Positions 1-16,932 of a stretch of DNA of 20,434 bases are shown here, piece after piece. Within the stretch, counting starts at the first letter, position 1. Every line of letters starts with the position of its first letter. This stretch comes from Caryophanales bacterium UBA3260 (lineage in GTDB: Bacteria > Bacillota_I > Bacilli_A > RF39 > UBA660). The notes under the pieces were generated by a model. The model was not told where the DNA came from. It worked only from the letters and a program-made list of their open reading frames with translations, and ran no database searches. The translations under genes were made by a program, and so were the position numbers. The stretch covers positions 1-20,434 of the forward strand of contig DEUO01000086.1 in the NCBI GenBank assembly GCA_002362595.1. Direction: 5' to 3'.

Positions 1-1008
1 AGAAAAAACATTAATAACAAAATATCTCCTTTGTAAATCATCTATATCTAACTTAATATTTAAAGATTCTACTAATTTTTTATCTTCTTCTTTATATCTT
101 CCAATAGAACATAAATAATCAGTATCAGCTAAAACAGATAAATATATTAATGTTTTTTCTTCATTACTAAATTCATACTTATCTTTAAATAATTCATATA
201 TAAATAATGCTGTACTAGAACTTTCTACTTCTAAAGTATCATATACTTCATTAGTTATCATATGATGATCAAAAGCCCCAATAACATTATCTTTATCTAG
301 ACCTTCTAAATTGTTATGATCTACTAATATAAACTTATTATCTTTGGATACAGTAACAGGTATACATGGTAAATAATCATCTATAAGTAACTTAGATTCA
401 GAAGCATATTGATATTCATTATCTAAAATAGCCATCTTAGCATTAATTCCTTGGCTTTTTAAAATATTAGCTAATATATAACTAGAAAACATTGAATCAG
501 CATCTGGTCTTTTATGTCCTATAACATAAACTTCACTACAACATTCAGCTTTACTTAATATTGATTCTAATATTTCTTCTTTTATCTTTTCTCTTACCTT
601 AACCAAAATCTTACCTATTTCATTTTGACCATTTCTTTTTGTACCTATTCCCCAGTAATATTCATCTTTAGTAGCTTCAGCAATCATCTGTGATCTAGTC
701 TCAATTAACTTATAAGCTATCTCTCTATTCTGACGAAACTTTTCTAAAACCCCTTCATACATTACATCATTCTTTATCATTTTAAAATTAGGTCGACGAA
801 TATTACTTCTATCTCGACCTATTAAAGAAGCTTCCTTTGGTGTAGGAGCTTCTATTATTCTATTTTTAATTATTTCATCTAAAAACTTTTCTGATTGATA
901 ATAATGTTCAACTGTTTTATAAAGAATTCCATTTTTAACAAAACTATGATTAGAATAGTTCGCTAAATAACCTAAATCACCAAATTCTTTATAAAACTCA
1001 ATTGCCAT
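1..1008 (-). CDS. NADAR (YbiA-like N-glycosidase) / DHH-family phosphoesterase fusion protein, 3' end outside window
   Basis: This gene is partial: 336 codons are present with no stop before the window edge. Residues 1-145 form a NADAR/YbiA domain, seen as EHYYQSEKFLDE (34-45), GRDRSN (64-69), YWGIG (118-122) and a closing QNEIGKILVKVRE stretch. Known NADAR proteins cleave N-glycosidic bonds of riboflavin-pathway intermediates or reverse ADP-ribosylation of guanine bases. From about 158 on, a DHH domain resembles family II Mn-dependent inorganic pyrophosphatase: GHKRPDADS (164-172), a VDH motif (229-231), DHH (247-249) and LADTD (293-297). All the usual metal ligands appear to be present: H165, D169, D171, D230, H248, H249 and D295. 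The ATG at 1008 lies 4 nt after the radical SAM stop, so the two are probably co-translated. The domain calls are firm; the substrate and the purpose of the fusion are unknown. Confidence 0.85.
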   Translation of the reverse strand, partial: MAIEFYKEFGDLGYLANYSNHSFVKNGILYKTVEHYYQSEKFLDEIIKNRIIEAPTPKEASLIGRDRSNIRRPNFKMIKNDVMYEGVLEKFRQNREIAYKLIETRSQMIAEATKDEYYWGIGTKRNGQNEIGKILVKVREKIKEEILESILSKAECCSEVYVIGHKRPDADSMFSSYILANILKSQGINAKMAILDNEYQYASESKLLIDDYLPCIPVTVSKDNKFILVDHNNLEGLDKDNVIGAFDHHMITNEVYDTLEVESSSTALFIYELFKDKYEFSNEEKTLIYLSVLADTDYLCSIGRYKEEDKKLVESLNIKLDIDDLQRRYFVINVFS

Positions 1009-1012
1009 AATA

Positions 1013-2647
1013 TCACTCTTTCATTCCTGGATATAAATATTTTACTTCTTTTTCATCTACTCTTTTATTAAATTCTGGCATTATTATATCATATCTAAAT
1101 GATGTTTGTCCTTCTTGTGAAGCAGTTTTAAATAAATCTAATTTTTCTATATTTACAACATTATCAAACCCACAAGCCAACTTCCAAACATAATTTTCTT
1201 GTTTCATTGTACTACAATGACGTCCATAATTACGTTCATGATTAGGAGTTAAAGGTTCATTAATAAAATTAGTTAAACCTTTAAAATAATTAATAGCTCT
1301 TCCTAAATTACATATCATTCCTGTATCTATTGTAAATTTAGAATCAAAGAAACAATCAGAAGGATATCCAGCTAATTTTAAAGCCTCAACATATAATTCT
1401 ACAACTGGTAATATGTGTTCTAATATATAATCAGCTTTATCATTCTTACCCTTGCGGCGATAATAACTAGAAGCTTTTTTAACAATACTTAGTACTTCTT
1501 TAACATCATTCCAATTACTCTTTTTATATTTATCACGTAAATTCATATTAAATTTACTCTTAAATTTATATAAAGCATTAAGTAAGAATCTTTCTGTTAC
1601 TATATATCCACTTTTCTTTCTTATATCTGTAATAGGATATATATTAAATCCATAATTACCTGTATTCTTTATTCTTGGTTCTATAGCATAATACTTACCA
1701 TCTCTATTAGAAAACATATACATTTCTACTTCTTTTTCTCTGTCTATTTTATCAGTACTATCTAAATATTCTACTATCTCTTCTTTACTATTAAAAACTT
1801 TAGGTAAATTATATTCAGTAAATAAAATAGGTTTTTCTGTTATATCTAAAGCATGAATATAAGGATTATCAATAAACGCTTCATTAAATGTAATATTTTC
1901 ATCTTTAGATATAAACATATAATTACCAGTAACAATAACATATTTATTCTTATAACTAAATTCATAAACAGAAGAATTAACAACTAATGGATTATATCTA
2001 AGTTCAACACACATCTTTCTAGAACCAGATCCAAACATATCAAAATATGGTCTATATATAGATAAGAAATTAGCCATATCTTTCATATAATCATCTAATG
2101 AATTGCCTCCATTTTTATCTTCCCATACTCTACCATATTGACTTACTGATAATCTTACACCAGCTAGTGCAAACAAAGATGCAGATGAATTAATCTTGCG
2201 ATGAATTCTATTTAATTCTTCATTAAAACGACTATAACCGACAGTAGAAATTCTTGTTCTAGCACCTAATTCCTTATAACATAAATCAATATACTTATCT
2301 AAATAAGGGTAAGAACCTATATCATTATTCAAATAAGGAAATACAACACCTACTCTATGTTCTTTTCTATCCCAAGCTAACAACAAATCATCAGATGTAT
2401 AATTAAGTGCTGTATATTTAATCGCACTTATTATATTACGCAAATTCTTTTCATCCCAATAATCGCTTTTACATACAGAGAATTTACTGCAAAAACCACA
2501 GTTATTAAAACATCCTACTTGTGGTTGAAAATGACGCATTTTAGATAAAAACTCTTCTGGTAAATTCATAAATTCGTCATATAATTTTTTTCTTATAGCT
2601 AAATCACTATTTGTTATTGTATCTTCATCGCTTAATAAAAAATTCAT
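1013..2647 (-). CDS. radical SAM protein of unrecognised family
   Basis: The 544-residue protein carries a canonical CX3CX2C cluster motif (C46, C50, C53 in GCFNNCGFC), the mark of a [4Fe-4S] radical SAM enzyme, with a further cysteine at 59. A later stretch (RTRISTVGYSR) looks like a radical SAM barrel strand. The remaining ~400 residues match nothing I know. They contain scattered cysteines near the C-terminus (HCSTM, LACGF) that could bind a second cluster or metal, but they do not form a standard SPASM or twitch pattern. The ATG directly abuts the LysR stop (TAGATG), with AGGTGA upstream as ribosome site. It is followed after 4 nt by the NADAR-DHH gene, so the three genes form one transcription unit. 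The reaction is unknown. A role modifying a nucleotide-like small molecule or a macromolecule is only inference from the neighbouring NADAR domain. Confidence 0.8.
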   Translation of the reverse strand: MNFLLSDEDTITNSDLAIRKKLYDEFMNLPEEFLSKMRHFQPQVGCFNNCGFCSKFSVCKSDYWDEKNLRNIISAIKYTALNYTSDDLLLAWDRKEHRVGVVFPYLNNDIGSYPYLDKYIDLCYKELGARTRISTVGYSRFNEELNRIHRKINSSASLFALAGVRLSVSQYGRVWEDKNGGNSLDDYMKDMANFLSIYRPYFDMFGSGSRKMCVELRYNPLVVNSSVYEFSYKNKYVIVTGNYMFISKDENITFNEAFIDNPYIHALDITEKPILFTEYNLPKVFNSKEEIVEYLDSTDKIDREKEVEMYMFSNRDGKYYAIEPRIKNTGNYGFNIYPITDIRKKSGYIVTERFLLNALYKFKSKFNMNLRDKYKKSNWNDVKEVLSIVKKASSYYRRKGKNDKADYILEHILPVVELYVEALKLAGYPSDCFFDSKFTIDTGMICNLGRAINYFKGLTNFINEPLTPNHERNYGRHCSTMKQENYVWKLACGFDNVVNIEKLDLFKTASQEGQTSFRYDIIMPEFNKRVDEKEVKYLYPGMKE

Positions 2648-3550
2648 CTATCTTTCACCTGCCTTACTACTTGTCATATATTCTATAAACTTAGATAATG
2701 TTGTTGTTGCAAACTCCTCAACATATACAGCACAAACATCTACAGCAGGAAGCTCATTTTCAAAAGTAACTACTTCAAAATTATCTTTATCATTTTGTGT
2801 ATCTATAACATTCTTTATAAAATATCCAATTCCTACACCACGTCTAACCATCTCTAACATCATTTCTGTTGTCCAAGATTCAAATACTGGATATAATTTA
2901 GTATTACGTGATTCCATAAATTCATCTAATTTTAATCTTATAGATGATGTAGCACTAGGTAAAACTAATGGATATTTCTTTAAATCATCAACAGTATTTA
3001 TAATTCCTTTAGGAAATGCATCTTTATTATAAGCGAAACAATTATATAGTCTTGCTAAAGATACCTTTTTAACTGTTTTCTTTGTCGTTGATATTGGTAA
3101 AGTATCGACAATTAAATCAATCTTTCTCGTTTCTAGCATATCAACCATATCAGCCGTCGATTTACTTATTATTTCAAATTTTATTCCTGGATAAATATTT
3201 CTAAAATCAGCAATAAAACGTGATAAATAAAATATACCAATATGTGATGGCGTACCTATCTTTATACACCCAATATTTAAGCTATTTAAATTCTTAATAT
3301 GCTCTTCTCCAGATTTTAAGATATTAAATGCAGTAGAAACATAAGAATATAATTCTTTTGCTTCCATTGTTGGCTCAATACCTTTTGAGTTACGGTAAAA
3401 TAACGTATACCCTAATTGATTCTCTAATTCTTTTAAACTATAGCTAATTGCTGGTTGTGACACATAAAGCAAATTAGCTGTCTTTGAAATACTTTTTTGT
3501 TCATATAAATATAAAAATATTTTATATAAATTACAATCAGTATTATTCAT
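2648..3550 (-). CDS. LysR-type transcriptional regulator
   Basis: The 300-residue length is typical of the LysR family. The N-terminal winged helix-turn-helix is clear at residues 15-60 (ISKTANLLYVSQPAISYSLK, then ELENQLGYTLFYR). A periplasmic-binding-like effector domain follows at about 88-290 (IKIGTPSHIG, RKIDLIVDTLP, GVGIGYF). I chose the ATG at 3550 because AAGGGGTG lies 8 nt upstream; an in-frame GTG at 3559 is a weaker alternative. LysR regulators usually sit divergent from their target. Here the regulator is the first gene of the unit and its stop touches the start of the radical SAM gene, so it probably controls itself and the two downstream genes. A perfect palindrome inside its promoter is a candidate operator. 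The effector is unknown. Confidence 0.9.
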   Translation of the reverse strand: MNNTDCNLYKIFLYLYEQKSISKTANLLYVSQPAISYSLKELENQLGYTLFYRNSKGIEPTMEAKELYSYVSTAFNILKSGEEHIKNLNSLNIGCIKIGTPSHIGIFYLSRFIADFRNIYPGIKFEIISKSTADMVDMLETRKIDLIVDTLPISTTKKTVKKVSLARLYNCFAYNKDAFPKGIINTVDDLKKYPLVLPSATSSIRLKLDEFMESRNTKLYPVFESWTTEMMLEMVRRGVGIGYFIKNVIDTQNDKDNFEVVTFENELPAVDVCAVYVEEFATTTLSKFIEYMTSSKAGER

Positions 3551-3572
3551 ATACTTCACCCCTTGGGAATGT

Positions 3573-3601
3573 ATTATATGTGATAATTATCAATTAGTCA
3601 A
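3573..3601 (-). promoter_or_regulatory. sigma-A-type promoter of the LysR operon with a palindrome in the spacer
   Basis: On the minus strand TTGACT (3596-3601) and TATAAT (3573-3578) are separated by exactly 17 nt. The spacer holds the perfect 12-bp palindrome TGATAATTATCA (3581-3592), which fits the T-N11-A-like dyads bound by LysR proteins. A regulator bound there would compete with RNA polymerase, so autorepression is likely. The start codon lies about 23 nt below the -10 element. Confidence 0.75.
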
Positions 3602-3630
3602 ATATTATAAGCCAATTTTATAACAAATAT

Positions 3631-3690
3631 AAAAAAAATAAATGGATAAAGAAAAAAACCAATTAATCATAATTTCTCTTTATCCATTCC
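3631..3690 (-). terminator. intrinsic terminator of the superoxide reductase operon
   Basis: The arms at 3641-3652 and 3677-3688 pair over 12 bp, and G-U/A-U pairs can extend the stem. On the minus strand a run of eight T follows. The coding end and stop codon of the DUF4186 gene lie inside the hairpin. Confidence 0.8.
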
Positions 3691-4031
3691 ATTATTAGAC
3701 ATACAATATAATTTATTTCATTATCGCTTAGCTCTCGCCCTTTACTAATATGATGCCATTTTTCTAAACAACCGCGACAACAAGTTGCTGTTGCATGTTG
3801 AGCTATAAAAACTGGATGATTCTTCATTGGAGTTTGCTTTCCATCATTTTCCGGTTCTTTTACTGCTAACTTACATCTAACAAAATCATAAGCGTGTTCT
3901 TTTATTTTTTCCATTCCTACTTTATCAATATACGCTATTTCTTTCTTTCGTAAATGAAAACTAGAACGAAACTTACTTTTATTCAATTCTTTTAACTTCT
4001 TATCTACTATTATATTTGCATTTCTATTCAT
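3663..4031 (-). CDS. DUF4186 family protein
   Basis: The 122-residue protein matches the DUF4186 family along its whole length as I remember it. It begins LNKSKFRSSFHL, continues with HAYDFVR and NDGKQTPM, and has the family hallmark HPVFIAQHATATCCRGC (72-88) followed by KWH. It ends with IMEWIKR. The histidines and the CC/C cysteines suggest metal or thiol chemistry, but no function is established for the family. The ATG at 4031 overlaps the VOC stop (ATGAATAG). A TTG at 4034 is also possible but less likely. It is the last gene of the superoxide reductase operon, so a link to oxidative or thiol stress is a reasonable inference. Its final codons form one arm of the terminator. Confidence 0.85.
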   Translation of the reverse strand: MNRNANIIVDKKLKELNKSKFRSSFHLRKKEIAYIDKVGMEKIKEHAYDFVRCKLAVKEPENDGKQTPMKNHPVFIAQHATATCCRGCLEKWHHISKGRELSDNEINYIVCLIMEWIKRNYD

Positions 4032-4443
4032 CAATATCTTTACTACCTAAGTCTTCTGAAAATCTTAATAAATAACCATCAGGATCTTTAACTAAAAATT
4101 CTTTATTACCAAGCAACTTATTATCCTGACGATACCAGTTTTCTTCAATATCAAAACTAATTTCATACCCATTATCTTTTAAAGATTCATATATAGGCAA
4201 AATAGAATCTACTTCTAACTGGAAATTAATTCCTCTTCCAAAAGGATATTCTAAAATACCTACCTGCCATTTATCATCTTTATCTATTTCTTGTAACATA
4301 AATTGTATCTCACCTAAAGAAATAAAAGCAAACTTATCTTCTTTTCTTTCATATTCTATTTTAAATCCACAGACAAGATAAAACTTTAAAGATAATTCCA
4401 AACTAGTTACACTTAGTTCAGGAATATTCTTATTAAAACACAT
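4024..4443 (-). CDS. VOC family protein (glyoxalase/bleomycin-resistance-like)
   Basis: The 139-residue protein has the fold signature of the vicinal oxygen chelate superfamily. The first half is IPELSVTSLELSLKFY (8-23) and the central strand is PFGRGINFQLEV (67-78). The C-terminal strand is FLVKDPDGYLLRFSE (116-130), where the final glutamate is a usual metal-ligand position. Members act as lyases, dioxygenases or drug-binding proteins, and this one cannot be assigned a substrate. I place the start at the ATG at 4443, which overlaps the superoxide reductase stop as TAATG and has GAAAGAG upstream. An upstream in-frame ATG at 4464 would overlap the previous gene by 22 nt and add residues atypical of the family. 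The stop overlaps the DUF4186 start, so all three genes are translationally coupled. Confidence 0.8.
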   Translation of the reverse strand: MCFNKNIPELSVTSLELSLKFYLVCGFKIEYERKEDKFAFISLGEIQFMLQEIDKDDKWQVGILEYPFGRGINFQLEVDSILPIYESLKDNGYEISFDIEENWYRQDNKLLGNKEFLVKDPDGYLLRFSEDLGSKDIDE

Positions 4444-4811
4444 TAATCTATCTCTTTCATCCATAAACCATGTAAATTACAATAAGCATAAACTTTCATA
4501 CCTGGTTCATAATCAAATATAATATCTATCTCTTCTCCAGGATGATATTCATACTTAATAATAGAATCACTATATTCAGCTATAACATACATTATATAAT
4601 GGTTTTCGTCCATTGGATGCTTTTGACTACCAACAGTCACTAATACAGTTTCATCTTCTACTTGACAAAAAGGAACATGTTTTTCATTACTTGCATCAGT
4701 ACTATTAGGAATTAATTCCTTCATTTCCTCCCCACAGCAACTTAAAATACCATCCTTCTGATCAAGCATTTCTACAACATTTCCGCATTTATTGCATCTA
4801 TAAAATTTCAT
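4443..4811 (-). CDS. dfx: superoxide reductase (desulfoferrodoxin, two-centre type)
   Basis: The 122-residue protein matches two-centre desulfoferrodoxin. The N-terminal desulforedoxin domain binds Fe through C6, C9, C25 and C26. The catalytic domain shows EKHVP (43-47), HPM (65-67), H71 and CNLHG (111-115), giving the four-histidine, one-cysteine centre II. The Glu-Lys before HVP is the usual catalytic pair. The enzyme reduces superoxide to hydrogen peroxide in the cytoplasm without releasing oxygen, which is typical of anaerobes. The start has GAGGTGAT 6 nt upstream. It is the first gene of an operon with a VOC protein and DUF4186, with its own promoter just below the terminator of the metal transporter unit. 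No peroxide-regulator (PerR) box was obvious. Confidence 0.95.
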   Translation of the reverse strand: MKFYRCNKCGNVVEMLDQKDGILSCCGEEMKELIPNSTDASNEKHVPFCQVEDETVLVTVGSQKHPMDENHYIMYVIAEYSDSIIKYEYHPGEEIDIIFDYEPGMKVYAYCNLHGLWMKEID

Positions 4812-4828
4812 ATTATCACCTCAATACA

Positions 4829-4857
4829 ATTCTACCATAAATAAAATATTGGTACAA
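4829..4857 (-). promoter_or_regulatory. promoter of the superoxide reductase operon
   Basis: On the minus strand TTGTAC (4852-4857) and TAGAAT (4829-4834) are separated by 17 nt. The start codon of the first gene lies about 18 nt below the -10 element. No operator was recognised. Confidence 0.65.
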
Positions 4858-4860
4858 TTA

Positions 4861-4891
4861 AAAACCTATAACTTTTAAAATTATAGGTTTT
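4861..4891 (-). terminator. intrinsic terminator after the cation efflux gene
   Basis: The perfect 11-bp arms AAAACCTATAA (4861-4871) and TTATAGGTTTT (4881-4891) are followed on the minus strand by a T run. The stop codon of the efflux gene (4881-4883) is part of the stem. Confidence 0.8.
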
Positions 4892-5768
4892 CTTTATTAT
4901 TTACATCTATTGGATTAACGTGTATAACCGTTAAATAAATCTCATCTACATTAGCTTCTATTTCTCTTTCCAACTTATTAGCGATTTCATGGCTCTGAAA
5001 AGTCGACATATTCCCATCAACAAATATCGTAAAAGATATTTGATATTTATATCCAACTGGAGTTGCATTAAAATGATTAATTTTATATATATCATCATGT
5101 GCTTTAATTATTTCCATAACTTTCTCTTTCGTCTCAGATGAAATAACTTTATCCATTAAAATATCATAACTATCTTTAAATATCTTTACTCCTGTATATA
5201 TTATCCATAAAGATATTCCTATTCCAACAACTCCATCTATATATTTAACATTAAATAAAGATAAACATGCTGATATTAAATTAAATAAAGTAATACCACA
5301 ATCATTACGATGATCTTTAGCATTAGCTTCTACTAATAAATTCTTATATTTTTTACCTATTCTTGATGTATAAAGGAAAAGTCCCAACTTAACAAGTATT
5401 GTAACTATACAAACAACAATTAACCATATTGTAAAATGATATTCATTACTTTTAAATAAAGAATTTACTGCACTTATTAATATCTTACTACCAAGTAGAA
5501 TCATCATAATACTTATTAACATTGAATATATATACTCTGCTTTACCATGCCCTAAATTATGATCTTCATCTGCTGGTGCTGATGATATCTTATTACCAAC
5601 ATAAGTCATAATTGAACTAAATATATCAGAAGCACTATTCATTGCATCTGCAATCATTGCTTGACTATTTGAAATAATTCCTACAATTATTTTTATAATA
5701 AATAAAAATATATTACCAACAATCCCTACTATACTAGCTCTATTAGCTGCTTTAAATCTATCATCCAT
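4881..5768 (-). CDS. cation diffusion facilitator family transporter, probable Mn2+ type
   Basis: The 295-residue length and layout are those of a CDF efflux protein: six transmembrane helices in the first ~205 residues and a cytoplasmic ferredoxin-like domain at the C-terminus (HFNATPVGYKYQISF, later YLTVIHVNP). Helix 2 reads ADAMNSASD, giving N44-x3-D48. Helix 5 reads KDHRND, giving D152-x3-D156. Zn-type CDFs usually carry HxxxD at these places, whereas N/D-x3-D with D-x3-D is the pattern described for manganese exporters of the MntE/MneP kind. HNLGHGKAEY (70-79) is the conserved loop after helix 2. The ATG has AAGGAG 7 nt upstream. It follows the ZIP gene after 39 nt and may also have its own promoter in that gap. 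Metal specificity is inferred. Confidence 0.9.
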   Translation of the reverse strand: MDDRFKAANRASIVGIVGNIFLFIIKIIVGIISNSQAMIADAMNSASDIFSSIMTYVGNKISSAPADEDHNLGHGKAEYIYSMLISIMMILLGSKILISAVNSLFKSNEYHFTIWLIVVCIVTILVKLGLFLYTSRIGKKYKNLLVEANAKDHRNDCGITLFNLISACLSLFNVKYIDGVVGIGISLWIIYTGVKIFKDSYDILMDKVISSETKEKVMEIIKAHDDIYKINHFNATPVGYKYQISFTIFVDGNMSTFQSHEIANKLEREIEANVDEIYLTVIHVNPIDVNNKENL

Positions 5769-5793
5769 AATAATTCTCCTTCATTGTCTAATC

Positions 5794-5821
5794 ATTATAA
5801 CACACATTTAACCTAATACAA
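5794..5821 (-). promoter_or_regulatory. possible internal promoter before the cation efflux gene
   Basis: On the minus strand TTGTAT (5816-5821, inside the end of the ZIP gene) and TATAAT (5794-5799) are 16 nt apart. This could let the exporter be expressed without the ZIP transporter. Confidence 0.5.
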
Positions 5822-6530
5822 CATCTAATACCATCATTATAATAAATCCAATTAAAAAACCTAAAACATTTATTCTATTTTTACTGTCAGATTCTGGTAT
5901 AAGTTCTACTACTACAACATAAAACATTGCTCCTGCTGCAAGTGATAACAAATATGGCATCAAAACACTTACTATATTCGTAAATAATAAAGTAATTAAA
6001 GCTCCTAATAACTCAAATACAGCTGATATAACACCATATAAAAAAGCTTTATTCTTACTAAATCCTTTTTTCTTTAAAGGAAAAGAAACAATACTACCTT
6101 CTGGAAAATTCTGAATAGCTATACCTATCGCTAAAGCATAACAAGCAGCTAAATTAATACCTCCCTTAAGATAAGAAGCAAAAGAAATACCAACTGCCAT
6201 TCCCTCAGGTATATTATGAATCGTTATAGCTAGCATCAAATTATCCACTTTACCGGCAATTTTCCTTCTGTCCAAAAAATAATCCAAAAAATAAAATAGT
6301 AAAATTCCTATAACTAAACCACAACTAGCAGGAAACCATATATATGAATCTAACATTTCCATAGATGGAATAAGCAAAGACCATATTGAAGCGGCAATCA
6401 TAACACCTGCTGCAAATCCTAAAATAAGATTCTCCCATTTCTTAGACATATTATCTTTCAAAAAATAAACCATTAATGATCCTAAAGTTGTCCCAATAAA
6501 AGGAATCATTATACCTATTAATACCTTCAT
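5808..6530 (-). CDS. ZIP family metal transporter
   Basis: The 240-residue membrane protein has the two ZIP signature helices that form the binuclear metal site: HNIPEG (105-110) in helix 4 and QNFPEG (140-145) in helix 5. AVFELLGA in the next helix supplies the usual additional glutamate. About eight hydrophobic helices are visible. The family moves Zn2+, Fe2+ or Mn2+ across the cell membrane, usually into the cytoplasm, and this one resembles the bacterial GufA/ZupT branch. The start has GGGAGA upstream. The gene lies 5' of the CDF exporter in the same direction, so an importer/exporter pair for the same or competing divalent metals is likely. The short gap upstream has no convincing promoter; the preceding unit ends in a terminator at 6579-6606. 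Confidence 0.9.
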   Translation of the reverse strand: MKVLIGIMIPFIGTTLGSLMVYFLKDNMSKKWENLILGFAAGVMIAASIWSLLIPSMEMLDSYIWFPASCGLVIGILLFYFLDYFLDRRKIAGKVDNLMLAITIHNIPEGMAVGISFASYLKGGINLAACYALAIGIAIQNFPEGSIVSFPLKKKGFSKNKAFLYGVISAVFELLGALITLLFTNIVSVLMPYLLSLAAGAMFYVVVVELIPESDSKNRINVLGFLIGFIIMMVLDVVLG

Positions 6531-7718: not shown

Positions 7719-8357
7719 TTATTCACCTGCTCTCCCATATATTTTTTTAAGTACCTTATTAGTTCTTTGCGCCTCTTCTTCCTTTATAGAACTATTTAAT
7801 CCATTGCCAATTAAACTAAGTTGCTTCGGTGATGCAAATTCTTCTATTTCTGATAGAGTAACTAAGTACCAATCTTCTTCTGATTTAGTTTTAGGATCAT
7901 AAACTTTTGTTATAAAATTACTCTTACTTTTCAAATATTCAGAAGCAACCGCAATAACATTCTCTGATGAATTACAAACCCCTAAAGCTTTACTTTTATT
8001 CTTCTGATAATACAAAGAACAAATAATTATAATCAAATCTATTAGTGCTTTTAAAACTCCCGGAAATGGCATCGCTGTTGTTAAAAAAATTCCGACAATA
8101 GCTAAAAAACATTCCTTTAACTTCGCTATATTTAATTTCAATCTATATTGTTCTATTTTATCCAAATATTCATCTTTATATTCTAGAAATTGTCTTTCCA
8201 TCATTAAAAAAGTTGCATTTAAATTATGGACAGAAAAATCTCTAACTTCTTCACGACCACTAGCATATATAACATGATAAAAAGGACTTTCATCATCCAT
8301 AAACACCTTAGTTATAAAACTATCTTTATCTTTTGCATTTGTAGTTAAATCAATCAT
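7719..8357 (-). CDS. membrane protein of unknown function, paralogue B
   Basis: The 212-residue protein has the motif YASGREE (31-37) followed by FSVHN (41-45), two hydrophobic segments at about 83-116 and a C-terminal soluble part (YDPKTKSEEDWYLVTLSEIEE). These match paralogue A element by element although overall identity is low. It is the first gene of the unit, with AGGGGG about 8 nt before the ATG and a well-formed promoter above. No known family was recognised. Conservation of the YASGR-E...HN block between diverged copies suggests that it is the functional core of the soluble domain. Confidence 0.75.
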   Translation of the reverse strand: MIDLTTNAKDKDSFITKVFMDDESPFYHVIYASGREEVRDFSVHNLNATFLMMERQFLEYKDEYLDKIEQYRLKLNIAKLKECFLAIVGIFLTTAMPFPGVLKALIDLIIIICSLYYQKNKSKALGVCNSSENVIAVASEYLKSKSNFITKVYDPKTKSEEDWYLVTLSEIEEFASPKQLSLIGNGLNSSIKEEEAQRTNKVLKKIYGRAGE

Positions 8358-8381
8358 TACAAATCCCCCTAGACAAGCTTT

Positions 8382-8410
8382 ATTTTACACCTGTATATAT
8401 AAATTAACAA
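8382..8410 (-). promoter_or_regulatory. promoter of the paralogue/lipoprotein operon
   Basis: On the minus strand TTGTTA (8405-8410) and TAAAAT (8382-8387) are separated by 17 nt. It begins immediately after the terminator of the lepA unit. Confidence 0.65.
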
Positions 8411-8435
8411 GAAAAAAAGCTCAACCAGAGCTTTT
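8411..8435 (-). terminator. intrinsic terminator of the lepA unit
   Basis: On the minus strand AAAAGCTC (8428-8435) and GAGCTTTT (8415-8422) pair around a 5-nt loop and are followed by more T. It begins 5 nt after the stop of the 8441-9151 gene. Confidence 0.8.
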
Positions 8436-8440
8436 ATACC

Positions 8441-9151
8441 TTACACTTTAGCTAAAACACTACCAGTATTTTCTAAACTTTCCATATATTCTTCTATTTC
8501 TTTTACTAAACTTAAATCATTGTTTTTTCTAGCATAATCTAAAAGAGTACCTGCATCTAACCCAAAATCTTTAACCATCATAAAAGCTCTTCTAAGTCCA
8601 TACTTAGAATCTCTTAAAATAATACTATATACTATCGAATTAAATAATCTATTCTTAATTTCTAATTGAATATCATAATTATCTAAAGCTTTATCCATAA
8701 ACCTAGTATCTATATCTATTCCATTACTTTCAATAAATAAAATAGCATCTCTAATATTCATTCCTATTAATTCATCTATAATATATTTACCATTTTCACT
8801 TGATACAATATTACCATCTTCATCTAAATTAATATTGAAAATAGTTCCCTTACTTGAAGATTTAACCATATTAACATATCTAGTCTTTAATAAATAAAAT
8901 CTTTCATACCATGGTAAAGATAGTAATAACTCATCTATTGAAAAAACTTCTTCATTACTTTTTCTTACTCCACTTAAAACATCTTCATTATATTTAAATT
9001 CATACCATACTTCTATTTTATTAATTAACTTAGCCATATCAACAATAGGAAAAAATTGTCCAATATCTGTTGTACTATATTTAATAGCATCATTACTAAA
9101 CCAATTAATAAAATCATCAATATAACTTTGCTCTTTATTTATTTCTCCCAT
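8441..9151 (-). CDS. conserved-looking hypothetical protein downstream of lepA
   Basis: The 236-residue protein is soluble, acidic and mostly helical, with no signal peptide, membrane segment or motif I recognise. Features are an aromatic-rich N-terminal half (FINWFSN, WYEFKY, LPWYERFYLLKTRY), a strand-like central piece (GTIFNINLDEDGNIV) and a helical C-terminal half ending with EEIEEYMESLEN-like acidic turns. I place the start at the ATG at 9151 because GGAGGGG lies directly upstream; a TTG at 9163 is in frame but would sit before that ribosome site. It begins 18 nt after the lepA stop and is followed at once by the terminator, so it is the second gene of a lepA unit. Function is unknown. 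Confidence 0.75.
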   Translation of the reverse strand: MGEINKEQSYIDDFINWFSNDAIKYSTTDIGQFFPIVDMAKLINKIEVWYEFKYNEDVLSGVRKSNEEVFSIDELLLSLPWYERFYLLKTRYVNMVKSSSKGTIFNINLDEDGNIVSSENGKYIIDELIGMNIRDAILFIESNGIDIDTRFMDKALDNYDIQLEIKNRLFNSIVYSIILRDSKYGLRRAFMMVKDFGLDAGTLLDYARKNNDLSLVKEIEEYMESLENTGSVLAKV

Positions 9152-9169
9152 ATTCCCCTCCAAAAATAA

Positions 9170-10966
9170 TTATTTATCAGCTTTTAAAACAGATAAAAAA
9201 GCTTCTTGTGGAACTTCAACACGTCCAACCATTTTCATTCTTTTTTTACCTTCTTTTTGTTTCTCTAATAATTTCTTTTTACGAGAAATATCTCCACCAT
9301 AACATTTAGCGAGTACATTCTTTCTCATTGCACTTATATTTTCACGTGCAATAACTTTACTTCCAATACTTGCTTGTAATGGTACTAAAAATAACTGATG
9401 AGGAATAATATTTTTTAAATTCTCTACAATTTTCTTTCCCCTATTATATGCTGCATCTTTATGAACAATAACACTTAAAGCATCAACAACTTCTCCATTA
9501 ATTAATATATCCATCTTTACAAGATCAGAAGCCTTATATCCACATAATTCATAATCAAAAGATGCATACCCTTTAGTTGTACTTTTTAACTTATCAAAAA
9601 AATCATAAACAATCTCAGCAAGAGGTATTTCATAGTGAATATTAACCCTAGTAGGATCAATATAATCCATACCTATATAATCTCCTCTTTTATCCTGACA
9701 TAACTCCATTATTGGTCCAATAAATTCACTAGGTACAAATATATTAGTTCTAATATAAGGTTCCCTTATCTCTTTTATTTTAGCTCTTTCTGGTAACTTA
9801 GTAGGACTATCTATCTCAATTACATCTCCATTAGTTAATTCTACATTATAAATAACAGAAGGAGAAGTAGCTATTACATCTAAAGAAAATTCTCTTTCTA
9901 ATCTTGTCATAATAATATCCATATGCAAAAGACCTAAAAAACCAGTTCTAAAGCCAAAGCCTAATGCTTCGCTCGTTTCAGGTTCAAAAACCAAAGAAGC
10001 ATCATTTAATTGTAATTTCTCTAATGCTTCACGCAAAGCTGGAAACTTATTAGGTTCAATTGGAAATATTCCACTATATACCATAGGTTTCATTGGTTGA
10101 TATCCAGGCAATTGAGTAATAGCTTCATTATTTAAAGTAGTCAAAGTATCTCCTACTCTAACACTTCTAATATCTTTAATTGAACCACTTATCCATCCTA
10201 CTTCTCCAGATACTAATTCATTCTTTATTTCTTCCTTTGGATGATTAACTCCTAATTCAACAACATCGTATTCATCTTTAGTAGCTAACATCTTTATTGA
10301 ATCTTTGCTTGTTATTTTACCGTCAAATACTCTAACTAAAGCAATAACCCCACGATATGGATCAAAATGACTATCGAATATTAACGCTCTTGTAGCAGCA
10401 TCATTATTAATCTTCGGAGCTGGAATTCTTGTTACAATCGCTTTAATTAAATCTTCAACCCCTTCGCCTGTCTTACCACTACATAGTATTACTTCATCTT
10501 CATTAAAACCTAAAACATCCTTTAACTCTTTTAATACCTTAGGAATATCTGCATTAGGTAAATCTATTTTATTTATAACTGGAATAATAACTAAATCATC
10601 TTCCATTGCTAAATAAAGATTAGCTAATGTCTGTGCTTCAATTCCCTGCGCCGCATCAACAACCAAAACCGCTCCTTCACAAGCAGCCAAACTTCTTGAT
10701 ACTTCATAACTAAAGTCTACATGACCTGGGGTATCTATTAAATGCAAAGTATAATCTTCACCATTATATTTATATGATAACTGAACAGCATTTAACTTAA
10801 TAGTAATTCCTCTTTCCCTTTCCAAATCCATACTATCAAGCATTTGTGCTTTCATATCATGTTTATCTACTCCACCAGTAATTTCTAATATTCTATCTGC
10901 TAAAGTACTTTTACCATGATCTATATGTGCAATTATAGAAAAATTTCTAATATTTTCCTGTTTCAT
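9170..10966 (-). CDS. lepA: elongation factor 4 (LepA), translational GTPase
   Basis: The 598-residue length is that of intact LepA. GTPase motifs are in order: G1 AHIDHGKST (13-21), G2 RGIT (52-55), G3 DTPGH (78-82) and G4 NKID (132-135). EF-G-like domains follow, and the C-terminus carries the LepA-specific end ([19 protein letters not shown], then [10 protein letters not shown]). LepA binds ribosomes, favours back-translocation in vitro and affects initiation and stress fitness in vivo. The start has AGGTGA upstream and a -10-like TATAAT about 22 nt away. The usual Bacillota neighbours of lepA (hemN, hrcA) are not next to it here. A short unknown gene is cotranscribed downstream. Confidence 0.97.
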
Positions 10967-11031: not shown

Positions 11032-11060
11032 TTGTTTTTTATTTCTAAATATGTTATTAT
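11032..11060 (+). promoter_or_regulatory. promoter of the plus-strand gene
   Basis: TTGTTT (11032-11037) and TATTAT (11055-11060) are separated by 17 nt. The start codon at 11083 has AAAGGAG 7 nt upstream. The promoter is back to back with that of lepA. Confidence 0.6.
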
Positions 11061-11082
11061 AGCAGTCAAAAGGAGAATATAT

Positions 11083-11820
11083 ATGTTTAAAAGTAAAAAT
11101 AATAATAAATATATTGAATACATCGACTCTCTTATAGAACAACTAAAAAATACTTTACATAATAGTGAACAACTAGATTGTATTATCGGTAAACTGCGTT
11201 ATGCAAAACAAAATATAACAGATTTTAACATCACAATAAATGGTAATAGTTTCTATGCTTATAATAAAGATAATCAAGATTCTTTTTCTCTTGAAATAAC
11301 AGATAATGATATAATAATATATCTAACTTATTGGAATAATCATCATCATGAAACAAGAGCTATAAAATATGATGGCCCTATTACTGTAGTAAGACAAGAT
11401 GAAACAACTCATTATATTATGTCTGGTACAGAAGAACCATCAAGTACACTTCGTAAACAAAAAATAGAAGTATATAAAGATAATGAAATACTATATATTA
11501 GAGAATACTCATCAGAAACTTCTGCTAGACTAGATTCTTTAACAAGTTTATCAACTATTTCTGAAACATACATTAATGATCAAAGAGAAGCTATCAAGAA
11601 AACAATTAATATAGGTGATGAAAATGCCTTTAGTAAAACAGGTGTTGAATACTTCTTTACTCCTAATTTTGAAGCTCCGCCATTTAATGATACATCTTGT
11701 AAACAAAAAGTATTTATGTATGGAATGAGTACAACTTCTGAAGAATTCTATAATAGTTTCTTATCTCAATTTAAATTTAATAGTAAAGCATTAAAATACT
11801 TACCACCAAAACAAAACTAG
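11083..11820 (+). CDS. hypothetical protein, divergent from lepA
   Basis: This 245-residue protein is the only plus-strand gene. I chose the ATG at 11083 for its AAAGGAG ribosome site; the frame is open further upstream to 11032, but that region is promoter. There is no signal peptide or membrane segment. The N-terminus is a basic helical segment (KSKNNNKYIEYIDSLIEQL). The middle is strand-rich (FNITINGNSFYAY, FSLEITDNDIIIYLTYW) with a HHHE run. The C-terminal part has a TGVEYFFTPNFEAPPF stretch. I do not recognise the family. It has its own promoter and terminator and so is a single-gene unit. Confidence 0.75.
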   Translation: MFKSKNNNKYIEYIDSLIEQLKNTLHNSEQLDCIIGKLRYAKQNITDFNITINGNSFYAYNKDNQDSFSLEITDNDIIIYLTYWNNHHHETRAIKYDGPITVVRQDETTHYIMSGTEEPSSTLRKQKIEVYKDNEILYIREYSSETSARLDSLTSLSTISETYINDQREAIKKTINIGDENAFSKTGVEYFFTPNFEAPPFNDTSCKQKVFMYGMSTTSEEFYNSFLSQFKFNSKALKYLPPKQN

Positions 11821-11849: not shown

Positions 11850-12710
11850 TTACTTACATGTATATCCTTGTTCTATAAAATCTCTTTTAGTTACATCATA
11901 AGACATTTCTCCACCAATCTTATATTCGTCAGGATAATACTTTCTTAGTTCTGGAGCAGTACTAGAATAAGATAATTCTATTATATCACCAGTCTGCCAT
12001 GTTTCAAATTTAAATCCTGGTATACTTTCTATACTACCTTCTATCTCTTTTTTGAATTCTTTAATTTCACTATCAGTAAAATTAAAACTAGACAAATCCA
12101 TATAAGATGTCATAATAATTGACCAAGGTAACTTAGTAGAATCATAAAAAGACATTGTAACAATCTGTTTAGTAGGTATATCATCTTCATTAGGTAAATC
12201 AATAGAACAAACTAAAGATGTCATCGTATCATTCTCTTTAGGTATAGTTGGATCTACAATAACTGGTTTATCTGGAAGTGGTTGTACTACTGGTTCATCT
12301 TCCTTAGGTGGTGTTACTGGTTTATCTTCCTTAGGTGGCGTTACTGGAGTATTCTCATTTTTAGTATCATTACCACCAGTACTACTTGGTTTATTATTAT
12401 TTTTATCGCTACTTGGATTTTTATCATTACTTGGTTTATCATTAGCTTCACTATTTTTATCTTCTGCCTTCACTTCTTCAGGCTTCACTTCTTCAGGCTT
12501 CTCTACATTTTCTTCTTTTTTATTCTCTTCTTTAGGAGAATCTACAACATCTTCTTTTTTATTTTCTTCCTCTGTATTATTATCTCTTTTATCTATAGTA
12601 TTACTATCTCTTCCACTAAAAAAATCTGTTTTTACGGCGAAGAAAATGCCTCCACTCAAACCAATAACCACAAATACTAAAACTAATATTATTATAATAT
12701 CTTTTCTCAC
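11850..12710 (-). CDS. membrane-anchored protein with acidic, proline-rich repeat linker and C-terminal extracytoplasmic domain
   Basis: The 286-residue protein has an N-terminal transmembrane anchor at about 4-26. A long disordered linker follows (about 30-160), rich in E, K, N, D, P and S, including doubled PEEVK units (72-81) and doubled VTPPKED units (123-138). The C-terminal ~120 residues form a folded domain, strand-rich at first (TSLVCSID, IVTMSFYD). It ends EYKIGGEMSYDVTKRDFIEQGYTCK-like, with cysteines C168 and C285 at its two ends that might form a disulfide. The domain recalls small lipoprotein-like domains of Mollicutes-type genomes, but I cannot name it. The start is a GTG with a weak ribosome site. 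It has its own promoter and shares a terminator with the convergent gene. It probably projects through the cell envelope. Confidence 0.75.
   Translation of the reverse strand: MRKDIIIILVLVFVVIGLSGGIFFAVKTDFFSGRDSNTIDKRDNNTEEENKKEDVVDSPKEENKKEENVEKPEEVKPEEVKAEDKNSEANDKPSNDKNPSSDKNNNKPSSTGGNDTKNENTPVTPPKEDKPVTPPKEDEPVVQPLPDKPVIVDPTIPKENDTMTSLVCSIDLPNEDDIPTKQIVTMSFYDSTKLPWSIIMTSYMDLSSFNFTDSEIKEFKKEIEGSIESIPGFKFETWQTGDIIELSYSSTAPELRKYYPDEYKIGGEMSYDVTKRDFIEQGYTCK
12292..12345. repeat. tandem 27-bp repeat, two copies, coding the VTPPKED linker
   Basis: Units at 12292-12318 and 12319-12345 differ at two bases. They code for repeated nine-residue V-T-P-P-K-E-D-x-P units in the linker of the 11850-12710 protein. 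A shorter 15-bp doubling that codes for PEEVK lies near 12467-12496. Confidence 0.75.
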
Positions 12711-12734
12711 ACTATCACACTACTTTACACCCTA

Positions 12735-12763
12735 AGTATATCCTACAAAATTTTTAAATACAA
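12735..12763 (-). promoter_or_regulatory. promoter of the anchored repeat-linker protein
   Basis: On the minus strand TTGTAT (12758-12763) and TATACT (12735-12740) are separated by 17 nt, just below the topA terminator. Confidence 0.6.
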
Positions 12764-12786
12764 TAAAAAGACGAATTAATCGTCTT
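12762..12786 (-). terminator. intrinsic terminator after topA
   Basis: On the minus strand AAGACGA (12780-12786) pairs with TCGTCTT (12768-12774) around a 5-nt loop and is followed by T. The topA stop codon forms part of the loop. Confidence 0.75.
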
Positions 12787-14800
12787 CATATTTACATTCA
12801 TCGTTACTACATATAATCTTTTTACCTTTATCTAGTAACATACTACCACATTCTGGACACATTTTATCAATTGGTTTATACCAATAAGCTGTCTTACATT
12901 TAGGATAATTATTACATCCATAAAATATTTTACCTTTACGGCTTTTCTTTTCAACAATCTTTCCATTACAATTAGGACAATTACATATATCTATAACTGG
13001 AACTTCTTCCTTTTTTATATATTTACATTCAGGATAATTTGAACAAGCAACAAATTCCCCATATCTACCAGTTCTAATAACAAGTGGATTACCACATTCT
13101 GGGCAAGATTCTCCCGTTTGTTCTGCTTCCTTTTTCTCCATCGTTTTAAATGCATCTTCAACAAGTGGTTCAAATTTATCATAAAAATCTCTTAATACTT
13201 TAACATTATTGATTTTTGCTTCTGCTATTTCATCTAAATCATTTTCCATATTAGCAGTATACTCAACATTTATAATATCACTAAAACCTTCTTGTAACTT
13301 ATCTGTTGTTTCGATTCCAATCTTAGTAGGAACAAACTTTTTATCTTCTACAATAACATAATCTCTAGCTTTAATAGTTTCCATTATTGTTGCATAAGTT
13401 GAGGGTCTACCTATTCCTAACTTTTCTAATTCCTTGATAAGTGAACTTTCTGTATATCTTGGAGCTGGTTTTGTAAAATGTTGTTCTTTAAGTACTTCAT
13501 CAGCTTCTAATACTGTAATACCAGTTAAATCTGGTAATATAACATCTTCAGAAGATTCATACATACCATATACTTTTAAATATCCATCAAAAATTAAAAC
13601 ACTACCAGTTGCTTTAAAAAGATAATCATTATTAAGTAATGTTACTGCTGTTGCTTTAACTTTAGCATCAGCCATTAAACAAGCCAAACTTCTAGCATAA
13701 ATTAAACTATATAATTTATATTCATCTGCACTTAAATACTTTTTCAAAGACTCTGGAGTACGATAAGCGCTAGTCACACGAATACCTTCATGTGCATCTT
13801 GCATATTTTCATTTTTCTTTTGTTGCTTTACAGCACCAACATACTTATCTCCATAAGTTTCTTTAATATATTTAAAAGCTTCATTAACAAATACTGGTGA
13901 CAATCTTTCACTATCTGTTCTCATATAAGTAATAAGACCAACAGTTTCACTACCTATATCAATACCTTCATAAAGTTTTTGTGCAATACGCATCGTCTTA
14001 CTACTAGGAAAATTAAGACGATTAACTGCTGTTTGTTGTAAAGTACTAGTCTTAAAAGGCATTACTCCTTTTTTATTCTTCTCTTTACATTCTATATCTG
14101 TTATATGATATTCTTTACCTAAAGAATTAATAACTTTATCAGTTTCTTCTTCATTATGTAATTCTATCTTTTTATTCTTATATTTTTCTAATTCAGCTTT
14201 CATTTCACCAAATAAAGCTGTAATACTCCAATATTCTTCTGGTATAAAAGCTTCTATTTCTCTTTCACGATCAACAATTAACTTTAACGCAACACTCTGT
14301 ACACGTCCAGCACTCTTTCCACCCGTCTTAGATTGCATTAATTTAGATAGTCTAAAACCAATAATACGATCTAATATTCTTCTAGTTTCTTGACTCTTAA
14401 CCAAATCCATATCAATATCTCTTGGATTTTCAAAAGCACTCAAAATTACATCTTTAGTTATTTCGTTAAATGTAACTCTTTCATAATTTTTCTTAATTCC
14501 TAAAGCTTCCTTTAAGTGCCAACTAATTGCTTCTCCCTCACGGTCAGGGTCAGTAGCTAGATAAACTTGTTCAGCTTCTTTAGTTAATTTTTTTAAATCT
14601 GTAATTACTTTCTTTTTGCCTTTCATAGGTATATAAGATGGTAAAAAATCATTATCTACATCTACACCTAATCCGAATTTACCAGTCGTAGCTAAATCTC
14701 TAATATGTCCCATACTAGCAACAACTTTAAAGTCATTGCCTAAATACTTTTCAATAGTTTTACTTTTACTTGGAGATTCCACTATAACCAATTTTTTCAT
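12776..14800 (-). CDS. topA: DNA topoisomerase I (type IA)
   Basis: The 674-residue enzyme relaxes negative supercoils by single-strand passage. The Toprim domain is at the N-terminus (VIVESPSKSKTIEKYL, with DPDREGE at 84-90). The active-site tyrosine is Y292 in GLITYMRTDS. GRPSTYATI is the conserved segment after the gate. The C-terminal ~100 residues contain three four-cysteine zinc ribbons (CPECG..CSNYPEC, CPNCNG..CNNYPKC, CPECG..CSNDEC), the usual tail of bacterial TopA. The start has GGAAGGAG 8 nt upstream. It lies 24 nt after the LtaS-like gene and ends the operon. In Bacillota topA normally follows dprA; here that place is taken by the LtaS-like gene. Confidence 0.98.
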   Translation of the reverse strand: MKKLVIVESPSKSKTIEKYLGNDFKVVASMGHIRDLATTGKFGLGVDVDNDFLPSYIPMKGKKKVITDLKKLTKEAEQVYLATDPDREGEAISWHLKEALGIKKNYERVTFNEITKDVILSAFENPRDIDMDLVKSQETRRILDRIIGFRLSKLMQSKTGGKSAGRVQSVALKLIVDREREIEAFIPEEYWSITALFGEMKAELEKYKNKKIELHNEEETDKVINSLGKEYHITDIECKEKNKKGVMPFKTSTLQQTAVNRLNFPSSKTMRIAQKLYEGIDIGSETVGLITYMRTDSERLSPVFVNEAFKYIKETYGDKYVGAVKQQKKNENMQDAHEGIRVTSAYRTPESLKKYLSADEYKLYSLIYARSLACLMADAKVKATAVTLLNNDYLFKATGSVLIFDGYLKVYGMYESSEDVILPDLTGITVLEADEVLKEQHFTKPAPRYTESSLIKELEKLGIGRPSTYATIMETIKARDYVIVEDKKFVPTKIGIETTDKLQEGFSDIINVEYTANMENDLDEIAEAKINNVKVLRDFYDKFEPLVEDAFKTMEKKEAEQTGESCPECGNPLVIRTGRYGEFVACSNYPECKYIKKEEVPVIDICNCPNCNGKIVEKKSRKGKIFYGCNNYPKCKTAYWYKPIDKMCPECGSMLLDKGKKIICSNDECKYEDD

Positions 14801-14823
14801 ATTGCTGCTCCTTCCAATGTATA

Positions 14824-16932
14824 TTACTCTTCATTTGCTTTCTTTTGGTCCTCTATATCTTTTATTCTCATTTCTTCTCTATTAGCTTCTAAAACATTAA
14901 AATAATTTGATTTAATAGCTAATCTAGACATAGATAAACGCTCTTTTACTACTTTATTTATATCTTTTATTTCTCCGTCATTATATTTTCTATTAACATC
15001 ATAGAAATTAATTGTACTTTTAACCCCATCATAATAAGCTTTATTATCTTTCCATGAACCATCAACAAATATTACTCTATTATCATAACTTGGTGATAAT
15101 ACATCTTTGCCCATATATAACCTTGGATCATAATCTAAATCAAATAAATTAGCAATTGTAGGAACAATATTAATAGTTGATATATTTTCTTTAAATTTTT
15201 GTCCCTGCATTCCAGTATTATATATTATAAAAGGACTTTTATCTATATTTTTTTCTAAACTTACATCTTCATCTAAATATTTACTAACACTTTTACTATC
15301 TAAAGTATATGGAGTATGTGACGAATATAGAACAATAACAGTATCATTTAACTTATCTTGTGTTTCTAATCCTTTTAATAATACCCCAATAGCATCATCT
15401 AATTCTTTTATCTTAGATAAATATCTTCTTATTGATATATCATATGGTAAATCCGCAAATAACTCTAAGTTCTTATCTCCATATTCACTACTAACATCAT
15501 AAGGTAAATTAGTTGCCGAAGTGGTTAAAAATGATACAAATTTATTCTGAGTACTTATTATTCTTAAATATTTTTCCATTAATTCCTTATCACTAGGCCA
15601 TTCACTATATTTACTATTATAAGGAATACTTAAAGCTTGTACTCCATAATACTTATCACTACCTAAATTAGGACTAATAACAGGCCTATTAAAGAAATGT
15701 TCGGAATAATTATGAAAACTATTAACTACATATTCATTCTTTTTAAATAGTTTAAATAAAGATTCTGGATAGACGTTTCTAACATACTTATTAGCTGTAC
15801 AATCATTAGATATTGGATACAAACTAGTAATAGCACTTAATTCATTATCTATTCCCGAACAAGAAGAACGTAAACTATAAGAATTATCCCAAGACCAACC
15901 TTCTGTATACAATTTATATATATTTGGAAAATACTCTTCATTAATTGCCATATTATTTATAGCAGCCATAGATATAATTATTAAATTCTTATCTTTAAAA
16001 AAACCTGTAAAATCATTCTTATCAGTTATTTCTTGACTAATAAAATAATTATTTAAAGTAGTATAACTCTTACTTCCACCATTATTAATCAATCTCTTCC
16101 ACATCGTATCATCAAGACGTCTTTTATAATCACTTTCTATTTGTTCCTGGATAGTATACTTATTGTTATATTCTGACTCTATACTATTATCATTTAACAC
16201 CATAGCTTTTATATCATTAAAAGCATATCCTAAAACCCCAAATTTATTTATAGCTAAATAAGAATTATTAGGATTAGTAAATAATTCCATATTTGATTCT
16301 AACTGATAATTAGCAGTCATATTAGGGCTTATCAATAAAAAGTAATAAAGTCCTGCAAATCCACAAGAAATAACTAATGCATTAGCTTTACTATTCCACC
16401 ATGCTTTTCTTTTCTTTCTTGCAAGTGCAGCTTCATTTAACTTTTTTCGCTCTTCACTATCAAACTTATCAGCAAAATCTATCTCATCATTTTTCTCTAA
16501 TACTTTTATTCTATAATCACAAGTAATATAAAAAATTCCTAGTATTAAAAGAGGAACAAAAATAAGGGCATCTAAAAAACTAAAAGAATGAATATATTGA
16601 ACAATAAAATCTTTCGTTGATTCTAACTGAGATAACATTGAAATAGAAGGAAAAGCCCCTAATATCTTAAAAAATCCTATCTGTAAAAAATAATATATTG
16701 AACATAAAAAACCAACAATGAAAGTCAAAATATTTGAAGCAAGTCGACCAAAAAATGAAAAAGCTGCTGCTAATACTAAACTAAATAAATTTATTCCTAC
16801 TAGAATTCTTAGTACAGAAAAATCAATAATTCCTAAGCCAACACACAATCTAAATATTACTTCTTCTATAAATAAAGTTAACATTAATAAAAAATAATTT
16901 TTAAATGTATCATTATAGAATAACTTAATCAT
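14824..16932 (-). CDS. LtaS/sulfatase-superfamily membrane protein with degenerate catalytic site (probable pseudoenzyme)
   Basis: The 702-residue protein has the LtaS architecture: about five transmembrane helices before residue ~205, a linker, then an extracellular sulfatase-fold domain (about 310-650). The alignment with lipoteichoic acid synthase is easy to follow. NLIIISMAAINN stands where LtaS has its ...LES..., so the metal-binding Glu is A323. SGIDNELSAITSLYP stands for the GKTSDAEF..NSLYP block, so the nucleophilic Thr is G360 (S359 adjacent). LYSSHTPY stands for MYGDHYG, so the metal-binding Asp is S538 while H539 remains. SFHNY and FFNR keep other conserved residues. With three of four key residues gone, glycerol-phosphate polymerisation by the normal mechanism is unlikely. 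The gene starts 4 nt after the rnhB stop and is intact, so it is probably retained for another role such as binding or scaffolding in the envelope. Confidence 0.8.
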   Translation of the reverse strand: MIKLFYNDTFKNYFLLMLTLFIEEVIFRLCVGLGIIDFSVLRILVGINLFSLVLAAAFSFFGRLASNILTFIVGFLCSIYYFLQIGFFKILGAFPSISMLSQLESTKDFIVQYIHSFSFLDALIFVPLLILGIFYITCDYRIKVLEKNDEIDFADKFDSEERKKLNEAALARKKRKAWWNSKANALVISCGFAGLYYFLLISPNMTANYQLESNMELFTNPNNSYLAINKFGVLGYAFNDIKAMVLNDNSIESEYNNKYTIQEQIESDYKRRLDDTMWKRLINNGGSKSYTTLNNYFISQEITDKNDFTGFFKDKNLIIISMAAINNMAINEEYFPNIYKLYTEGWSWDNSYSLRSSCSGIDNELSAITSLYPISNDCTANKYVRNVYPESLFKLFKKNEYVVNSFHNYSEHFFNRPVISPNLGSDKYYGVQALSIPYNSKYSEWPSDKELMEKYLRIISTQNKFVSFLTTSATNLPYDVSSEYGDKNLELFADLPYDISIRRYLSKIKELDDAIGVLLKGLETQDKLNDTVIVLYSSHTPYTLDSKSVSKYLDEDVSLEKNIDKSPFIIYNTGMQGQKFKENISTINIVPTIANLFDLDYDPRLYMGKDVLSPSYDNRVIFVDGSWKDNKAYYDGVKSTINFYDVNRKYNDGEIKDINKVVKERLSMSRLAIKSNYFNVLEANREEMRIKDIEDQKKANEE

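Follow-up and report, generated by a model that had tools for sequence, protein, structure and literature searches.

NADAR enzymes cut N-glycosidic bonds, and the accessible parts of PMC11543638 and PMC9503650 name those of riboflavin intermediates and of ADP-ribosyl-guanine; the accessible part of PMC11125620 calls the physiological roles of NADAR outside DarT operons unclear. In the viperin-CMPK2 pair, a radical S-adenosylmethionine (SAM) enzyme stands with a kinase (PMC10058120, accessible part). In this study, we analyzed a stretch of 20,434 nucleotides from Caryophanales bacterium UBA3260 (contig DEUO01000086.1, positions 1 to 20,434 of the forward strand; hereafter the window), whose left end (positions 1 to 3601) holds genes for a LysR-type regulator, a radical-SAM-fold protein of 544 residues, and a fusion of NADAR with a DHH phosphoesterase. 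The operon exists as described, is conserved, and has no published description that our searches could find. What is new in it is the radical-SAM family and the way in which known domains are combined, not the kind of system. We consider the chances about even that this LysR-controlled operon encodes a nucleotide-remodelling pathway around the new family, with the putative chemistry proposed below.

The 544-residue protein resembles the radical SAM superfamily in its CxxxCxxC motif and its barrel, but differs in its low identity (8-15% in the best 20 rows of a VIA structural comparison), in having no match to a Pfam (E <= 0.001) or NCBIfam (E <= 0.1) family, and in a conserved insertion of about 220 residues inside the barrel. 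The NADAR half shares with the NADAR/YbiA N-glycosidases above-cutoff matches to PF08719 and TIGR02464 and the residues E34, K41, and E111, whereas its fusion to DHH and its tie to a radical-SAM enzyme set it apart. The DHH half is like the family-II manganese inorganic pyrophosphatases in its DHH motif residues and in its matches to 9m0m and 1k20; the protein differs from them in its N-terminal NADAR and in the weak trace of DHHA2 (E 0.089, in the related locus L002). The nearest analogy is viperin-CMPK2, as some relatives have a radical-SAM protein with an adjacent or fused kinase bearing a GLDxxG-type P-loop; in contrast, the window operon has no kinase, and no sequence kinship to viperin was shown.

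In the open-licence literature, we found no relevant description of NADAR together with radical SAM, no joint description of NADAR and DHH (the accessible part of PMC7824862 treats the two apart), and no paper on radical SAM with NUDIX, ATP-grasp, and thymidylate kinase or on viperin with thymidylate kinase and radical SAM, prokaryotic viperin with a kinase included. Queuine lyase (QueL) is a further radical-SAM enzyme, active in base salvage, on which the open-licence literature searched had no paper. The accessible part of PMC11125620 contains neither "DHH" nor "radical", and that of PMC9503650 neither "DHH" nor "radical SAM". The operon had been called a candidate undescribed one in a preliminary description made from the sequence, and this holds as far as the open-licence literature goes.

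Organization and conservation of the operon

The three open reading frames (ORFs) are all on the minus strand, at 1-1008, 1013-2647, and 2648-3559, with a gap of 0 nt between the LysR and radical-SAM genes and of 4 nt between the radical-SAM and NADAR-DHH genes, so that the tight packing given in the preliminary description was confirmed. Pfam also agreed with its naming of the LysR and NADAR-DHH genes. The features of the three genes were as follows.

2648 to 3559, minus strand: LysR-type regulator with both HTH_1 (PF00126, 9.1e-16) and LysR_substrate (PF03466, 2e-23)
1013 to 2647, minus strand: radical-SAM-fold enzyme of 544 residues, unnamed family (AlphaFold model and cluster motif)
2489 to 2512, minus strand: C46-x3-C50-x2-C53 motif, predicted [4Fe-4S]/SAM cluster, invariant in 61 and in 42 aligned homologues
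1337 to 2002, minus strand: insertion domain inside the barrel, residues 216-437 (AlphaFold model)
580 to 978, minus strand: NADAR domain with E34, K41, and E111 (PF08719, 6.1e-30, 105.1 bits against a cutoff of 35.1; TIGR02464, 110 bits against 73.7)
1 to 534, minus strand: DHH phosphoesterase domain resembling family-II pyrophosphatases, incomplete at the window edge (PF01368, 7e-14)

Genome contigs yielded 27 pattern stretches, 7 of which were loci of relatives. The genome searches gave matches in 3 of 288, 1 of 392 (the centre itself), 4 of 193, 3 of 241, and 6 of 367 genomes, these draws overlapping and including the centre genomes. The 12 Bacilli-type loci with context, the window among them, are all that were found. 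LysR was at position -1 of the radical-SAM gene in all 12, and NADAR was at +1 or fused to the radical-SAM protein, likewise in all 12. DHH was fused to NADAR in ten, L018 and L019 having no DHH at the locus. A small pathway of radical enzyme, glycosidase, and phosphoesterase under a regulator had been proposed in the preliminary description, with comparison of gene neighbourhoods as the test; the 12/12 linkage, maintained while the wider flanks varied, supports this proposal.

By their flanks, the loci formed the groups {window, L001, L002, L045}, {L003, L004}, and {L005, L006, L007, L018}, with L019 and L022 standing alone and the second and third groups having part of their flanks in common; no gene beyond the three was common to all neighbourhoods. 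An upstream three-gene set (c2-c5-c9) was present in L003, L005, L006, and L007, and two of its genes in L018. In L005 (6406-9003), where alone it was typed, it encodes an ABC ATPase and an ABC-2 membrane protein together with a protein that no Pfam family matches, so that these five loci have an ABC-2 transporter cassette on the upstream side of LysR. In L022, a NUDIX gene was found two genes before the radical-SAM gene.

Radical-SAM-fold protein

The preliminary description took the 544-residue protein for an orphan radical SAM enzyme, and the CxxxCxxC motif, the modelled barrel, and the lack of a Pfam or NCBIfam family all agreed with this. The AlphaFold (AF2) model (pLDDT 91.9) has a radical-SAM barrel, a partial (beta/alpha)6, interrupted by the insertion. 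Radical-SAM enzymes made up all of the best 50 rows in the VIA comparison and the first eight Foldseek matches, and the structural neighbours were DesII, TYW1, EpeE, viperin, and QueE. The window protein (P0002) was not listed for PF04055 (Radical_SAM) even at E <= 10, its score lying below the gathering score.

Two homologue searches returned 422 and 84 protein clusters. Forty-four columns were invariant in the 42 aligned homologues including actinomycetes. The invariant basic residues in this alignment were R94, H97, R132, R165, R217, R343, R353, K363, and R472, with R343, R353, and K363 located in the insertion. Comparison of the insertion domain with the PDB gave no convincing solved relative, although a weak or missing match is no proof of a new fold. 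An auxiliary Fe-S cluster formed by C213, C446, and C492 was also considered and rejected; C213 and C446 were invariant in the set of 61, but not in the wider set of 42 with actinomycetes.

NADAR-DHH protein

The NADAR-DHH ORF is open at the left window edge, with 336 residues present against 425-435 in nine relatives. The closest PDB match of the NADAR half was YbiA (2b3w, E 3e-33). Its catalytic Glu/Lys/Glu was intact, since E34, K41, and E111 aligned with residues of 8bau that we took as E43, K50, and E125 of PMC11543638 under a presumed numbering offset of 2. The DHH half was closest to the manganese pyrophosphatases 9m0m (E 1.7e-14) and 1k20 (E 5.3e-13), and the window copy had all nine checked residues of the motifs HxxxDxD, D, DHH, and D; in L005, H231 is replaced by N. 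The DHHA2 half, which left its weak trace in L002, is cut by the edge in the window copy.

Fusion, loss, and exchange of genes

Fusions of radical SAM with NADAR were found in eight protein clusters (P0125-P0132; P0124 is the same protein as P0125). On a 47-row tree, part of whose backbone is unresolved, at least four changes are required to explain the fused state, and a single clade of fused proteins was rejected (p-AU 4.7e-51). The Glu-Lys-Glu and WG motifs of NADAR were intact in all nine fused entries checked, the identical P0124 and P0125 counted separately. One fused protein (P0129, 846 residues) also carries a GreA/GreB-like part.

At locus L035 in genome G669, NADAR-DHH follows LysR after 13 nt, with no radical-SAM gene between them, and searches of this genome, which may be incomplete, found no such gene elsewhere. 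In this single case, NADAR had lost K41, W119, and G120 by deletion and carried R65K, E111N, and E116K, with E34 kept, and its PF08719 score (33.9 bits) fell just under the cutoff of 35.1. All nine checked motif residues of the DHH half were kept.

The two loci without DHH, L018 and L019, carry instead a CYTH protein and a thymidylate-kinase-like protein. The CYTH copy of L018 is of the CyaB type (TIGR00318, 1.5e-13, under its cutoff); the kinase-like partner matches Thymidylate_kin (PF02223) and is fused to radical SAM in P0204. Strong CYTH and kinase matches occurred in 2 of 11 genomes (G772 left out), exactly those whose locus lacks DHH, with 407 and 188 bits in one and 428 and 232 bits in the other; other matches reached at most 25 bits. 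L018 lies inside the DHH clade as sister to L007 (98/93) and has the upstream neighbours of L007. Replacement of DHH is therefore indicated, and the sequences point to its exchange for the CYTH and thymidylate-kinase-like pair at the two loci.

Two other observations were made in L018. The thymidylate-kinase-like protein (8317-8898) matches the PADLOC candidate model PDC-M51B (2.1e-25). A glutamate-cysteine ligase/ATP-grasp gene and a second ATP-grasp gene (12698-15890) are divergent from and adjoin LysR, and related genes occupy the same place in L007.

Actinomycete homologues

A remnant on a Streptomyces plasmid led to 84 listed homologues, with Streptomyces, Nonomuraea, Kitasatospora, and other actinomycetes among the named organisms; some of the UniRef entries are named "Radical SAM protein". 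Those aligned were 28-33% identical to the window protein. One complete locus (L036) has kinase-like, ATP-grasp-like, radical SAM, and NUDIX genes in this order, with weak assignments for the first two (no PF02223 match for the kinase; 25.5 bits against a cutoff of 27 for the ATP-grasp). The remnants L017 and L037 adjoin or overlap a NUDIX gene, and P0326 is a NUDIX fusion of the radical-SAM protein; P0323, probably a radical SAM and NUDIX gene pair joined by a frameshift, was taken as a sign of adjacency only. The parts read of L036, L017, and L037 showed neither NADAR nor LysR. A phage origin was rejected, since P0002, P0203, and P0244 had no phage matches and scans of viral contigs with A1, A2, P0203, P0165, and P0274 found nothing, that with P0244 giving L036.

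Proposed pathway and alternatives

In the nucleotide-remodelling pathway, LysR would sense a metabolite and turn on its own operon. The radical-SAM enzyme, with its many invariant basic residues in the barrel and the insertion, would bind a phosphorylated nucleotide-like substrate and modify it via the 5'-deoxyadenosyl radical. NADAR would hydrolyse the N-glycosidic bond of the product, freeing a base or a sugar phosphate, and DHH would split a phosphoanhydride (pyrophosphate or nucleotide), thereby pulling the pathway forward; in relatives, CYTH with the kinase, or NUDIX, would carry out the phosphate steps. We infer such a substrate because the recurring or fused enzymes act, by family, on nucleotides, base glycosides, and phosphoanhydrides, and the same families lead us to propose that NADAR cleaves the glycosidic bond and that DHH, or whatever stands in for it, removes phosphate. 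Salvage, synthesis of an analogue, and defence are candidate roles of the pathway. A broader version is doubtful: unrecognised radical-SAM nucleotide chemistry would be shared by Bacillota and Actinomycetota, with a nucleotide-binding insertion domain, NADAR as a dedicated partner in Bacillota, and DHH, CYTH plus kinase, and NUDIX as interchangeable phosphate modules, making or recycling a modified nucleotide, possibly a viperin-like polymerase-blocking analogue.

Several points weigh against the nucleotide-remodelling pathway. The radical-SAM assignment rests on the motif and the predicted model: Pfam Radical_SAM was matched weakly in 5 of the 61 family members (best E 0.045), profile searches of PDB sequences gave chance-level matches to other proteins and no radical-SAM chain, and one Foldseek match alone reached E <= 0.001, with low TM-scores. 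NADAR was absent from L036, the sole complete actinomycete locus read. NADAR occurred in 11 of 98 genomes (10 over the cutoff) and the radical-SAM gene at only 2 of these 11 loci, which leaves most NADARs with some other function. Common descent makes the 12 loci non-independent, and their flanks are partly shared; context is known for a minority of the several hundred homologues; moreover, the ABC-2 cassette may belong to the pathway.

The ABC-2 cassette, as a possible exporter, would also fit a biosynthetic pathway to a secondary metabolite or cofactor of the nucleoside type, as would the gene order of the actinomycete operon and the acetate-kinase-like, Gfo/Idh-like, and NUDIX genes flanking L022. 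This explanation appears rather unlikely, however, given that the Bacilli operon has just two enzymes, that no fourth gene is common to all neighbourhoods, and that the ABC genes may be mere neighbours. A viperin-like defence, in which an altered nucleoside triphosphate would stop phage polymerases, the kinase supplying the substrate and NADAR with DHH, CYTH, or NUDIX destroying the product afterwards, is distinctly unlikely. EpeE, SuiB, and others tied with viperin in the VIA comparison, which argues against any special kinship; no PADLOC model was matched by the radical-SAM proteins P0002, P0203, and the L036 copy (15 proteins screened in all); 9 of 11 Bacilli-type genomes had no close kinase match; and regulation by LysR points to a metabolic role.

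A repair function, in which ADP-ribose or some other adduct would be taken off a damaged base or cofactor, would agree with the release of ADP-ribose from guanine by NADARs (PMC11543638, accessible part), and NUDIX and DHH could process the ADP-ribose further. Such repair is nevertheless quite improbable: the radical-SAM step would have no clear place in it, scans of window genes and of neighbours in L018, L019, L022, and L036 found no ADP-ribosyltransferase, and E111 corresponds to the glutamate of the YbiA type, where the accessible part of PMC11543638 gives an aspartate for DarT1-associated NADARs. Common ancestry of the loci with partly shared flanks could also have kept functionally unrelated genes side by side. 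We regard this as very improbable in view of the 12/12 linkage across differing neighbourhoods, the repeated fusion of radical SAM with NADAR, and the decay of NADAR in G669, where the radical-SAM gene is gone.

The operon adds an uncatalogued radical-SAM family with an unusual insertion domain and would give NADAR a dedicated metabolic partner. The natural fusions, the natural loss of the radical-SAM gene, and the module swap make the proposed pathway amenable to a direct test with two purified proteins.

Promoter region and neighbouring genes

Of two possible LysR starts, the ATG at 3550, which follows AAGGGG, is more likely than the GTG at 3559. Three features were read upstream of it.

3573 to 3601, minus strand: promoter TTGACT-N17-TATAAT (hexamers 3601-3596 and 3578-3573), 11 of 12 consensus bases
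3581 to 3592, no strand assigned: 12-bp palindrome TGATAATTATCA within the promoter spacer
3604 to 3623, minus strand: TTATAA-type boxes just upstream of the -35 hexamer, candidate LysR site

The consensus promoter of the preliminary description was thus found, upstream of LysR. The promoter scan alone is little proof because this AT-rich stretch had 6 promoter-like sites against 3.7 +/- 2.1 expected; identical hexamers with N17 preceded LysR in 10 of the 12 loci (exceptions L019 and L022). The palindrome noted earlier is indeed in the spacer, but it was missing from the spacers of the nine other promoters of this type and was rejected as the operator. The first TTATAA box, a putative site of LysR binding, stood at the same place in eight of the ten (exceptions L003 and L045).

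It had also been suggested that more genes follow beyond the left edge. This is likely from the closest relatives, as L001, L002, and L045 have a common next gene (Mbeg1-like in L001), which we predict from the sequences to be the gene left of the window edge; the other loci differ.

Upstream of the operon, 3663-6530 of the window holds genes for DUF4186, a 146-residue ORF with sub-cutoff glyoxalase matches, desulfoferrodoxin, a CDF efflux protein, and a ZIP transporter, and most of this neighbourhood recurs beside the operon in L001, L002, and L045. In L022, acetate-kinase-like genes lie on either side of the operon (1597-4748 and 8882-9982), the downstream one split, and Gfo/Idh-like (sub-cutoff) and NUDIX genes lie upstream. 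Farther along the window, a plus-strand ORF of 262 residues (11032-11820) had no Pfam match, and the sole match of a 286-residue ORF (11850-12710) was a sub-cutoff transmembrane one.

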